Source of the DNA: Massilia sp. 9096 | GTDB lineage: Bacteria > Pseudomonadota > Gammaproteobacteria > Burkholderiales > Burkholderiaceae_D | Reading direction: 5' to 3' | Length of the DNA stretch: 64,000 nucleotides | NCBI RefSeq assembly: GCF_000745265.1 | Contig: NZ_JQNN01000001.1 | Span: 4,154,001-4,218,000 of the forward strand | In this document: in pieces, positions 43,323 through 47,105 of the stretch | Position numbering within the stretch: the first letter of the stretch is position 1 | Layout of the letters: each line of letters opens with the position of its first letter | Position numbers and translations under genes: made by a program | Notes under the pieces: model-generated | What the model was told of the DNA's origin: nothing | Databases searched by the model: none | What the model saw: the letters and a program-made list of their open reading frames with translations, nothing else

Positions 43323-45329
43323 TCAGATATCGAGCGGATCGACCTCCAACGACCATCTTACCCTGCTCTTCATTGCACGTAACACATCTACCCAGGTCGT
43401 CAGGAAGGCTTGCAGCGCCGGGCGCGAGTTCGACTCGATCAGCAGCTGGGCGCGGTCGACGTTGTGCACGCGCGTCATCGTCATCGGGATCGGGTCGTTG
43501 ATGACGACGGCGTCGGTCGGCACCGCGTCGCGCGCCTGCTCGAGGAATTCGATCGCGGTGGCCAGTTCGGGCGCCTCGGCGCGCAGCAGGGCCTGGTACA
43601 TGTAGGGCGGCAGCGCGGCCTGGTGGCGCTCCTCCAGCAGTTCGCCGGCGAAGCGCTCGTAATCGTGGCGCATGACGGCCGCATACAGCGGGTGCTGCAC
43701 GTAGCGCGACTGGATCAGCACCTCGGATTCGAGACCGGCGCGCCCGGCCCGGCCGGCGACCTGCATCAGCTGGGCGAACAGGCGCTCGCTGGCGCGGTAA
43801 TCCTGCGAGAACAGGGCCGTGTCCGGGTTCAGGATGCCGACCAGCGTCAGCTTCTTGAAGTCGTGGCCCTTGGCGACCATCTGCGTGCCGATCAGGATGT
43901 CGACCTCGCCGCGGTGCACGGTGTCGAACGCGGCCTGGGCGCTGCCCTTGCGGCGCGTCGAATCGGCGTCGATGCGCAGGATGCGCGCCTCGGGGAACAT
44001 CGCCTGCAGGCCTTCCTCGACGCGCTGGGTGCCGCGTCCCAGCGGCTGCAAATCGATGTTGCCGCAGGTCGGGCAGGCGTGCGGGATGCGCAGCTCGAGC
44101 GAGCAGTGGTGGCAGCGCAGGCGCCGCTCGGGCCGGTGCAGGACCATGAAGGCGGTGCAGCGGGTGCAGTTGCTGATCCAGCCGCAGGCGTCGCAGCTCA
44201 GCACCGGGGCGTAGCCGCGCCGGTTCAGGAACAGCAGCGACTGCTCGCCCTTCTCGATGCGCGCGCGCAGGGCGCGCACCAGCGTCGGCGTCAGGCCTTC
44301 CACCGGCTTGTCGCGCTCCATGTCGATCATGCGCACGCGCGGCAGCACGGCGTCGCGCACCGCGCGTTCCTTCAATTCGAGCAGGCGGTAGCGGCCGGTC
44401 TGGGCATGGTGCCAGCTCTCCAGCGAAGGCGTGGCCGAGCCGAGCACGATCGGGATCTGCAGCTGGCGCGCGCGCCACACGGCCAGGTCGCGCGCCGAGT
44501 AGCGCAGCCCTTCCTGCTGCTTGTACGAGGGGTCGTGCTCCTCGTCGATCACGATCAGTTTCAGGTTCGGCAGCGAGGCCAGGATCGCCAGGCGCGTGCC
44601 CAGCACGATGCGCGCACGGCCCTGGTGCGCCGCCAGCCAGTGCAGCATGCGCTCGCCTTCGGACAGGCTGCTGTGCAGCGTCGCCAGCATCACGCCGGGG
44701 AAGCGCGCGCGGATGTTGCCCTCCAGCTGCGGGGTCAGGTTGATCTCGGGGACCAGGATCAGGATCTGCGCATGATCGTCATGCGCCAGCACCTGCGCGC
44801 AGGCCTGCAGGTACACCTCGGTCTTGCCGCTGCCGGTCACGCCGTACAGCAGCATCGGACTGAAGCCCTCGGCCGCGCCGATCGCGTCGGCGGCCTGCTG
44901 CTGGCCCGGATTCAGCGCCGGCATGCCGGCTGGGGTGGCGTCGTGCGCATCCTCGAGCTTGGCCAGCTTCTTGAGGGCGCGGTCCAGCGCGACCGTGGTG
45001 TCCAGGCGCAGGTTCTTGGGCAGGCCCGGCATCGCGACTTCGCCCAGTGGCCGGTGATAGTAAGTGGCGGCGAAGCTGGCCAGCGCCAGCCATTTGCCCG
45101 ACAACGGCGCCAGCTGGCTGCGCACCGCCAGCGCATCCTTGAGCTTGTCGGCGGGGACGTCGGTGCCCTCCTTGATCGCGACGATCACCCCGACCACTTG
45201 GCGCCGCCCGAACGGCACCAGCGCCAGTTGCCCGACCAGGGGTTCGCCGCCCGGTTCGCATGGCCACCGGTAATCGAACACGCTGTCGAGCGGGGTATCG
45301 AGGGCGATTTGGAGGATGCAGTGGGCCAA
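43323..45329 (-). CDS. priA: Primosomal protein N' (replication restart helicase)
   Basis: DEAH-type 3'-5' helicase that rebuilds the replisome at stalled forks. The 668-aa protein has the N-terminal 3'-end-binding domain (ALDTPLDSVFDY onward), Walker A GVTGSGKTE (163-171), the DEEHD box (about 265), helicase motif ILGSATPS-like VLGSATPSLES, and the zinc module with four CxxC-type pairs (CDACGWISNC, CTRC, CHHC, CPTC). Motif VI is QVAGRAGRA. Length is slightly under the E. coli enzyme (732). Upstream is the 543-bp AT-rich gap with DnaA boxes, whose priA-proximal TGTGGAAAA repeats begin about 30 bp from the start. Confidence 0.97.
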   Translation of the reverse strand: MAHCILQIALDTPLDSVFDYRWPCEPGGEPLVGQLALVPFGRRQVVGVIVAIKEGTDVPADKLKDALAVRSQLAPLSGKWLALASFAATYYHRPLGEVAMPGLPKNLRLDTTVALDRALKKLAKLEDAHDATPAGMPALNPGQQQAADAIGAAEGFSPMLLYGVTGSGKTEVYLQACAQVLAHDDHAQILILVPEINLTPQLEGNIRARFPGVMLATLHSSLSEGERMLHWLAAHQGRARIVLGTRLAILASLPNLKLIVIDEEHDPSYKQQEGLRYSARDLAVWRARQLQIPIVLGSATPSLESWHHAQTGRYRLLELKERAVRDAVLPRVRMIDMERDKPVEGLTPTLVRALRARIEKGEQSLLFLNRRGYAPVLSCDACGWISNCTRCTAFMVLHRPERRLRCHHCSLELRIPHACPTCGNIDLQPLGRGTQRVEEGLQAMFPEARILRIDADSTRRKGSAQAAFDTVHRGEVDILIGTQMVAKGHDFKKLTLVGILNPDTALFSQDYRASERLFAQLMQVAGRAGRAGLESEVLIQSRYVQHPLYAAVMRHDYERFAGELLEERHQAALPPYMYQALLRAEAPELATAIEFLEQARDAVPTDAVVINDPIPMTMTRVHNVDRAQLLIESNSRPALQAFLTTWVDVLRAMKSRVRWSLEVDPLDI

Positions 45330-45872
45330 GCCGAACCTTGTGTGTAGAACTGTGGGTAACTGTGGAAAACTTTGTGGAAAATGGAAAACTTGACCGGGAC
45401 AAAGGTTTACGTTAGGTCAAAGCACTTATCAATTCCCTAAGTTCATTAAATTATTTTCCCTATTAATTCAACGGCTTACAATCGCCGTGTTGAACCAGGG
45501 GAAATTGTGCATCGCTGTGACGCTTCTGTGTATAACTGCGCGTTTCCATTGAAGAACTTATAAGCATTGCAGCAAAATCTTGATGAATCACTTGAAGAAA
45601 TCGCGTAAGCCTCGGTAAACCAAGAGTTTTTATCCATTATTCACAGAATCTGTGCATAACTTTGTGAACAATGGTCGGGAAAGTGCAGTGGATAACTCGG
45701 CCGGTCTGCATAAACGCCCTGGAAGCCCTTTGTGGCAAGGACGCAAAAACCATAAGAATCAAGCACTTATGATACCACAACCAGTACTGTACATTTTCAC
45801 AGGAAGGCTGGGCCTAGTCCTGATTTTTGTGAATAAGTGTGATTGTGGCTTGCTTGAGCAGCGCGCTCGAAC
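45330..45872. other. AT-rich intergenic region with a cluster of DnaA boxes
   Basis: The 543-bp gap between hemE and priA is much richer in AT than its flanks. Perfect DnaA boxes (TTATNCACA) occur at 45527-45535 (-), 45637-45645 (+), 45651-45659 (-) and 45828-45836 (-). One-mismatch versions occur at 45351-45359, 45361-45369, 45373-45381, 45663-45671 and 45687-45695. An AT-rich, unwinding-prone stretch lies at about 45421-45480. No gene is seen. The arrangement resembles an origin or a DnaA-titration site; it may also carry the priA promoter. Confidence 0.7.
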
Positions 45873-46955
45873 TCAGACCGCGCGCTGGCGGCGGCTGAAG
45901 CTGTGCACCGCCTCGACCATCGCCGTGACCGATTCCGGCGGCGTGAATTGCGAGATGCCGTGGCCGAGGTTGAACACGTGGCCATGGCCGGCCTGCGGCG
46001 TACCGTAGCTGCTCAGGGCTTTTTCGACTTCGGCGGCGATCTGCTCCGGACCGGCGAACAGGATCGCCGGATCGAGGTTGCCCTGCAGCGCGACGCGGTC
46101 GCCGACCTGGGCGCGTGCGCGGCCGAGGTTGACGGTCCAGTCCAGGCCGAGCGCATCGGCGCCGATGCCGGCCATCTCGTCGAGCCACAAGCCGCCGCCC
46201 TTGGTGAACACGATCGCCGGGATGCGCTGTCCATCTTTCTCGCGCTGCAGCCTGGCCACCACCTTGTGCATATAGGCCAGCGAGAACGCCTGGTAGGCGC
46301 CGTCGGCCAGCGCGCCGCCCCAGGAATCGAAGATCATGACGGCTTGCGCGCCGGCGTCGATCTGGGCGTTCAGGTACTGGGCCACGGCCTCGGCATTGAT
46401 CTCGAGGATGCGGTGCATCAGGTCGGGGCGCGCATACGCCATCTTTTTGATGGTGTGGAATTCGCGCGAACCGCTGCCCTCGACCATGTAGCAGGCAAGC
46501 GTCCAGGGGCTGCCCGAGAAGCCGATCAGCGGCACGCGGCCGTTCAGGGCGGTGCGGATCGAGGTCACGGCGTCGAACACGTACTGCAGGTCGGCCATGT
46601 CGGGCACGCGCAGCGCAGCGACGTCGGCTTCGGTCTGCACCTTGCGCTCGAACTTCGGGCCTTCGCCGTCTTCGAAATACAGGCCCAGGCCCATCGCATC
46701 CGGCACCGTCAGGATGTCCGAGAACAGGATCGAGGCGTCCAGCGGATAGCGGTCGATCGGCTGCAGCGTGACTTCGGTGGCGAAGTCAGGATTCTTGGCC
46801 AGGCCAAGGAAGGAGCCGGCACGCGCGCGCGTGGCGCGATACTCGGGCAGGTAGCGCCCCGCCTGGCGCATCAGCCACACCGGGGTGTAGTCGGTCGGCT
46901 GGCGCAACAGCGCACGCAGGAAGGTGTCGTTCTGGAGCGGGGCGAATTGTGGCAT
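45873..46955 (-). CDS. hemE: Uroporphyrinogen decarboxylase
   Basis: Decarboxylates uroporphyrinogen III to coproporphyrinogen III in haem synthesis; cytosolic. The 360-aa protein has the two family signatures: [16 protein letters not shown] near residue 26-41 (with the substrate-binding Arg residues), and the [20 protein letters not shown] segment near 140-155. The catalytic Asp lies in [13 protein letters not shown] chose ATG 46955 (MPQFAPLQ), which matches the family start; the region before it has no clear ribosome-binding site. Downstream is the DnaA-box gap and priA on the same strand. Confidence 0.97.
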
Positions 46956-47105
46956 GGCTGACAATAAGTGACGAGTGAGTGCCGAGGGCAAACCTCTATT
47001 ATCGCATTCCTTGGCCGGGTCACGGCGCGCATTGTCGGACTGGCATGCGCTGCTCGATCGCGGACAAGTTCATATAATGCTGTCTTCCACTTCCCAGGAT
47101 CGATC

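Follow-up and report, generated by a model that had tools for sequence, protein, structure and literature searches.

A candidate datA-like DnaA-box element with an IHF site between hemE and priA in Massilia sp. 9096 and its relatives

The datA and DARS elements have been worked out in Escherichia coli, and to our knowledge the cycling of DnaA activity is much less known in betaproteobacteria. The root source of the statements made about DARS conservation is probably a DARS paper from 2009. In an excerpted review, minimal datA is given as 183 bp (262 bp elsewhere in the same review), with boxes 2, 3, and 7 in one direction, a single IHF site, and a spacing that is important (PMC5742627). The DARS core is described there as a set of three boxes, spaced identically in the two elements DARS1 and DARS2, with box I in the opposite direction (PMC5742627). 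As for distribution, the excerpted texts give the DARS2 spacing as conserved in E. coli-proximal beta- or gamma-proteobacteria (PMC5742627), DARS conservation as gamma-proteobacteria (PMC4245941), and DARS-like sequences as conserved in many proteobacteria (PMC10380432).

The DNA analyzed here, referred to as the window, is C1:4154001-4218000, a 64-kb stretch of the 5.55-Mb chromosome of Massilia sp. 9096. A gap of 543 bp in the window separates hemE from priA. Both genes had been named correctly in a preliminary description, as the products match NCBIfam HemE (TIGR01464) and PriA (NF004067), each above the curated cut-off (Table 1). The closest named relatives of this PriA belong to Massilia (87–89% identity). 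The GC content of the gap is 43%, vs. 65% for the window. All four perfect TTATNCACA boxes of the window (at 45527, 45637, 45651, and 45828) lie in this gap. When one mismatch is allowed, the window has 22 boxes, 11 of which are in the gap (at 45341-45836). The earlier count of four perfect boxes was right, and that of five one-mismatch boxes is corrected to seven. The claim that perfect boxes should be rare by chance also holds. Dinucleotide shuffles of the whole window had a mean of 0.26 perfect boxes, with four or more in 0 of 100 shuffles, and in random sequences of gap composition, the mean number of boxes was 0.037 for perfect matches and 0.72 when one mismatch was allowed; none of 1000 such sequences attained the 4 or 11 boxes of the gap. 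A count of box density over the chromosome, which had been suggested as a check, gave 36 perfect boxes for the whole genome vs. 47 for a reversed control pattern. Since perfect boxes are not enriched genome-wide, the clustering in the gap is local. The AT-rich stretch described at about 45421-45480 was confirmed, and it overlaps the IHF-like site at 45466-45478 (one mismatch). Rfam searches gave no match up to E = 1 in window positions 45200-46000 and nothing at the gathering score in the loci of six relatives, indicating that a known RNA family is absent there.

Table 1. Features of the hemE-priA gap and its flanking genes (window positions). Distances within modules are start to start, read from hemE to priA (minus strand).
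Feature	Position	Strand	Basis and remarks
priA (replication restart helicase)	43323..45329	-	NF004067, 965 bits; TIGR00595; start at gap
Two one-mismatch boxes, TTCTACACA and TTACCCACA, adjoining the priA start	45341..45359	-	scan
Module B, second and weaker copy, toward priA	45361..45535	-	distances 57, 97, 109 bp
Module B boxes TTTTCCACA	45373-45381 and 45361-45369	-	one-mismatch scan
Module B IHF-like site ATTCAACGGCTTA	45466-45478		one mismatch
Module B first box TTATACACA	45527-45535	-	perfect
Module A, intact candidate datA-like arrangement (box1-IHF-III-II) plus inverted box I (DARS core)	45637..45836	-	sequence
Box I TTATTCACA	45637..45645	+	perfect, inverted; 14 bp from box II (DARS I/II spacing)
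Box II TTATGCACA	45651..45659	-	perfect
Box III TTGTTCACA	45663..45671	-	one mismatch; 98 bp past IHF start, 12 bp ahead of box II
Two more one-mismatch boxes, TTATCCACT (45687-45695) and TTATGCAGA (45705-45713)	45687..45713	-	scan
IHF consensus site AATCAAGCACTTA (WATCARNNNNTTR)	45757..45769	+	zero mismatches
Box1 TTATTCACA	45828..45836	-	perfect; 67 bp ahead of IHF site
hemE (uroporphyrinogen decarboxylase)	45873..46961	-	TIGR01464, 421 bits; 3' end at gap

The arrangement of these sites suggests that a non-origin element for DnaA control is present twice in the gap, once intact and once in a weaker form. Our preferred reading, held with moderate confidence, is an IHF-dependent DnaA control site that is datA-like and carries an added DARS core in the family of the window genome. 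When datA of E. coli MG1655 was scanned in the same way, it read TTATCCACA - 65 bp - IHF - 97 bp - TTATTCACA, with the directions as in module A. In both elements, a lone IHF site lies between boxes of the same direction, at 65 and 97 bp in datA and at 67 and 98 bp in the window, and the IHF consensus is oriented the same way. Judged by sequence, perfect boxes (45828 and 45651) of putative high affinity stand on either side of the exact IHF site (45757), and box1, III, and II all lie on the minus strand, like the essential boxes of datA in their single direction. With this agreement in spacing, IHF site, and directions, together with the DARS core, the earlier remark that DnaA-titration or reservoir sites share the layout of the gap proved to be the better lead. 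However, the two elements are not identical. The weak box 7 of datA sits 12 bp before box2, whereas the weak box of module A is on the other side of the IHF site. The datA locus lies between glyVXY and queG rather than between hemE and priA, and the region upstream of E. coli priA has no such module. Unlike datA, the modules in hemE-priA gaps are often doubled, and module A has an inverted box I at 14 bp. Moreover, the relative distance between datA and oriC is conserved in strains of E. coli, according to an excerpted source (PMC4585315), whereas the distance of the element from parS varies among relatives, ranging from 11 kb (G031) to 1.56 Mb (G238). This variation counts against a datA-like element.

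A comparison of the gap among relatives had also been proposed, and it showed that the module is conserved. Among 80 priA loci from named records, 77 have hemE in reach and three do not, and the addition of the window gave 78 gaps. Under a strict rule (box1 50–92 bp before the IHF site and a second box 104–114 bp after it, with at most one mismatch each and at most two in total), the module is present in 73 of the 78 hemE-priA gaps; neither the opposite direction nor any of 30 shuffled sets yielded one. The gaps without a strict module are L151, L154, L165, L170, and L172. At least two strict modules occur in 44 of the 78 gaps, and in 42 of the 48 that were placed in or close to Oxalobacteraceae according to their record titles. 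For the 120 strict modules, a search for a same-direction box ahead of box II covered offsets -20 to -9 and found one solely at -12 (90 modules). A search for an inverted box past box II covered offsets 9 to 24 and found one solely at +14 (73 modules). A loose rule, which required box II as TTRTNCACA with an IHF site (at most two mismatches) 104–114 bp before it, returned 102 rows from 75 of the 78 gaps, including the off-register duplicates WIN 337, L105 678, L124 283 and 1090, and L138 573. Within the allowed range of 104–114 bp, the distance from the IHF site to box II is 107–111 bp in 99 of these 102 rows. The IHF site is exact in 78 rows, and no more than one mismatch is seen in box III in 65 rows, with two in another 32. 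Box I has at most one mismatch in 57 rows and more than one in 45. The distances between box1 and the IHF site in these rows bunch near 56, 67, 77, and 88 bp, in steps of about one helical turn; compared with datA, first distances of about 56, 77, or 88 bp thus also occur in the modules of relatives. Exact IHF sites in the gaps are strongly biased in direction, with 93 in the module direction vs. five in reverse and 2.6 in shuffled gaps.

Beyond these gaps, the pattern has a patchier distribution. Among 300 genomes of the order (Burkholderiales), a strict box-IHF-box pattern was found in 90, representing 57 of 134 genera, with none for the reversed control. The absence of this pattern from the other 210 genomes counts against the preferred reading. 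The copy in the window itself is missed by the strict pattern because its box II is TTATGCACA. At the level of the class, a slightly wider pattern was found in 66 of 274 genomes (control, 0). Inspection of 46 module loci in the order, of which 30 were cut automatically and 16 were hand-picked, partly for oddness, found priA within about 1.5 kb in 35, both hemE and priA in 32, and neither gene in 11. Some of the loci that lack priA adjoin TatD- and PyrG-like genes (named by eye). For six genomes that have the module elsewhere (G155, G252, G025, G282, G232, and G130), the fetched stretch around priA contains neither hemE nor the module. In G039, hemE adjoins priA, yet there is no module between them, which counts against the preferred reading. 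In G149, boxes are present near priA in an arrangement outside the rule. In G269, the module is present at the priA locus as well as elsewhere.

For the class loci other than that of the window, nine of 27 have a PriA match on the box II side of the module, one of which is weak. PriA was matched in 54 class genomes, and a box-blind test was performed on the best 30 of these. The geometry was found upstream of priA and in the same direction in 11 of the 30 (10 of 29 without the window), compared with none in the opposite direction and none in 200 shuffles. At the threshold used, the geometry is absent from the remaining 19 priA loci, which also counts against the preferred reading. With at most one mismatch allowed, box III is present at -12 in 17 of 26 rows of class loci and box I at +14 in 16 of 26, and the corresponding numbers for the class priA rows are seven and eight of 10; the search pattern for class loci did not require both of these boxes. 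The loci found with the order pattern have lower proportions than the class loci (24 of 54 rows for box III and 17 of 54 for box I, again with at most one mismatch). The row sets of this comparison overlap, as L318 and L346 are one locus, and the stray row L314 is included.

The inverted box I links module A to a different group of described elements. Boxes I(+) at 45637, II(-) at 45651, and III(-) at 45663 have the same spacings of 14 and 12 bp as DARS1 and DARS2. In the scanned stretches of MG1655, these boxes are at 160(+)/174(-)/186(-) in DARS1 and 158(+)/172(-)/184(-) in DARS2. DARS2 is characterized by IHF and Fis sites at set distances. The IHF site of the window is on the box III side, as in DARS2, although it is 94 bp from box III vs. 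67 and 83 bp in DARS2 (low end to low end). Unlike DARS, the window has a fourth box of the same direction beyond the IHF site, and box I is missing in many relatives.

Elsewhere in the genome, about 1.57 Mb from parS, seven tandem units at C1:383892-384906 (L052 8892-9906) are flanked by xseA and by a gene that resembles exbB/tolQ but scores below curated cut-offs. Each unit has a box and an inverted partner at 14 bp, the DARS I/II spacing, and the partner has at most one mismatch in four units and two in the other three. A weak third box at 12 bp has two mismatches in six of the seven units. An IHF-like site is located 41–42 bp upstream, with at most two mismatches in six of the seven and an exact match in three. 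This organization looks like a DARS-type array. In G149, which belongs to another family, a weaker module match (L202 1501-1694) is also found beside xseA, like the array of the window genome.

In the proposed mechanism, IHF on its fixed site would bend the DNA, such that DnaA on box1 is brought next to DnaA on boxes III and II. Because these three boxes point the same way, head-to-tail stacking of DnaA would be possible, as proposed for E. coli datA. The resulting complex would most likely promote hydrolysis of DnaA-bound ATP, in a DDAH-like manner, and hold DnaA, and re-initiation would be damped once the element has been copied. The inverted box I, which completes the DARS1/DARS2 core, may also help the exchange of ADP for ATP. 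The window genome encodes IHF-alpha and Hda, which makes an E. coli-type DnaA cycle plausible in this bacterium.

The datA-like reading is preferred because box1, the IHF site, and box II persist where box I has been lost, and because the loop has the spacing found in datA. A reactivating site is indicated just as well by the DARS core, which is exact in this family, and a DARS-like or mixed activity is possible. If the element works as DARS2 does, ADP-DnaA would bind all three core boxes (head to head on I and II), and with the assistance of IHF, ADP would be released, ATP-DnaA would be made, and initiation would be promoted. This explanation is possible, though we hold it only tentatively. 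It accounts for the 14/12-bp core spacing shared with both E. coli elements, for the IHF position on the box III side as in DARS2, and for the retention of box I, with one mismatch or none, in 57 of 102 hemE-priA rows, 16 of 26 class rows, and eight of 10 class priA rows. However, box I is needed for the head-to-head contact, and it is gone (more than one mismatch) from 45 of 102 hemE-priA rows and 37 of 54 order rows, whereas box1, the IHF site, and box II persist. In addition, descriptions of DARS2 include no box1 on the far side of the IHF site, and the interval of 94 bp between box III and the IHF site departs from the 67 and 83 bp of DARS2. A further explanation combines passive titration with local control of priA, in which bound DnaA would lower the level of free DnaA and block the priA promoter, the IHF spacing being incidental. 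Four one-mismatch boxes lie 12–52 bp ahead of the priA ORF start, so repression of priA by DnaA is possible in addition to any other function, and priA adjoins the module in 35 of the 46 inspected loci. Nevertheless, titration does not need an IHF site whose direction is conserved and whose distance is fixed and helically phased, as is the case here. Local control of priA also fits poorly with modules located away from this gene, for example beside the TatD- and PyrG-like genes (by eye), as priA is not within about 1.5 kb in 11 of 46 loci. Taken as a whole, this explanation is unlikely. A joint hypothesis may also be considered, in which the element linked to priA would be a composite switch of ancient descent, combining a datA loop with a DARS core and inactivating or reactivating DnaA depending on IHF and nucleotide state. 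Enterobacterial datA and DARS would then be later specialised descendants, and the seven-unit array beside xseA would be a specialised reactivating counterpart. We regard this scenario as doubtful.

The preliminary description compared the cluster to known origins, and this part of it is not supported. The cluster is very probably a non-origin DnaA site organised by IHF, and it is highly improbable that the gap is the chromosomal oriC or a second origin of this genome. Several features do favor an origin, including the box cluster itself, the AT-rich gap, and the replication gene nearby. As in E. coli oriC, there are DnaA boxes, and one IHF site is given for oriC in the excerpted literature (PMC5742627). 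In addition, the hemE-adjacent region of Ralstonia pickettii 12D was named a putative second oriC from boxes and Z-curves (Gao 2015; excerpted text, PMC4403523). The raw cumulative skew of the contiguous 438-kb stretch has its minimum at about 4.12-4.14 Mb, which is 60-80 kb from the gap, but the raw GC skew of the window genome is weak and tracks gene direction. After strand correction, the best fit is at 4.30-4.36 Mb, broadly, and a second, lower optimum is seen at 4.14-4.16 Mb. A dif-like site at 1,501,822 has its antipode about 79 kb from the gap, but equally about 79 kb from a box cluster linked to parS. That site is the one exact hit to what we take to be the dif motif, and the reversed control also gave one hit. 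The position of the element in relatives, together with the separate parS-linked cluster, sets it apart from E. coli oriC. In G238, the raw skew switches at about 0.25-0.6 Mb and parS is at 0.29 Mb, whereas the hemE-priA element is at 1.85 Mb. In G093, G049, and G098, the element is about 300-371 kb from parS, and the skew keeps its sign across the element. In G049, the sampled skew keeps its sign at parS as well. The element is thus off the skew switch in four of the six sampled relatives, and the other two (G178 and Alcaligenes faecalis) have an unclear skew. The skew of A. faecalis flips near the element, yet it does so at several places, and this genome was dropped from the position argument for that reason. 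The argument also leaves out the modules far from parS in G282, G155, G252, and G130, which are not beside priA.

The window genome carries a better origin candidate in the parS-linked cluster at C1:4357645-4358953 (end of L044 and start of L045), which is likely to be the real oriC. It is located 4–5 kb before an exact parS and mnmG and contains three related stretches of about 250 bp (58–62% identical) with paired divergent DnaA boxes in DNA of 52% GC. The genes nearby include MnmG and a ParB-family gene above NCBIfam cut-offs and a ParA-like gene below them, with an RsmG-like frame between (by eye). Another nine boxes with at most one mismatch are found at C1:4344246-4344666 (L044), between AsnC/Lrp-like and GlmU-like genes (by eye). 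The rpmH-dnaA gap was rejected as oriC on the basis of boxes, as it has a single one. For C. metallidurans, the excerpted genome paper describes a single perfect box ahead of dnaA and, about 90 kb away, a region with three boxes (PMC2864759).

The module is present beside hemE in the Ralstonia loci L162 and L169, which suggests that the hemE-side region of R. pickettii 12D is probably the same element, and that the second oriC proposed by Gao is probably the element described here. Both have hemE as a neighbor and a box cluster. However, the R. pickettii region was read as an origin, and the excerpted text mentions neither an IHF site nor a spacing (PMC4403523). The element thus offers an explanation for a box cluster that was read as a second origin. 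Among the literature matches listed, there was no description of a datA-like element between hemE and priA, in a search that was blunt because 'datA' also matches 'data', and an earlier notice of part of these findings is possible. An element of constrained spacing next to priA, present in relatives of Massilia and part of the class, would be a direct target for testing DnaA-ATP control outside E. coli, and it prompts the question of how datA and DARS came about.

Other box arrangements were observed in some of the genomes compared. In G269, which belongs to the same genus as the window genome, another module in complete form, boxes III, II, and I included (L193 1501-1698), is located upstream of a UvrD/Rep-like helicase gene (by eye). 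Moreover, the small genomes of G076 and G031 both have an inverted pair of perfect boxes with the 14-bp spacing (L210 1634-1656 and L211 1638-1660, respectively). These pairs are located near mid-contig and adjoin a NUDIX-like gene (by eye).
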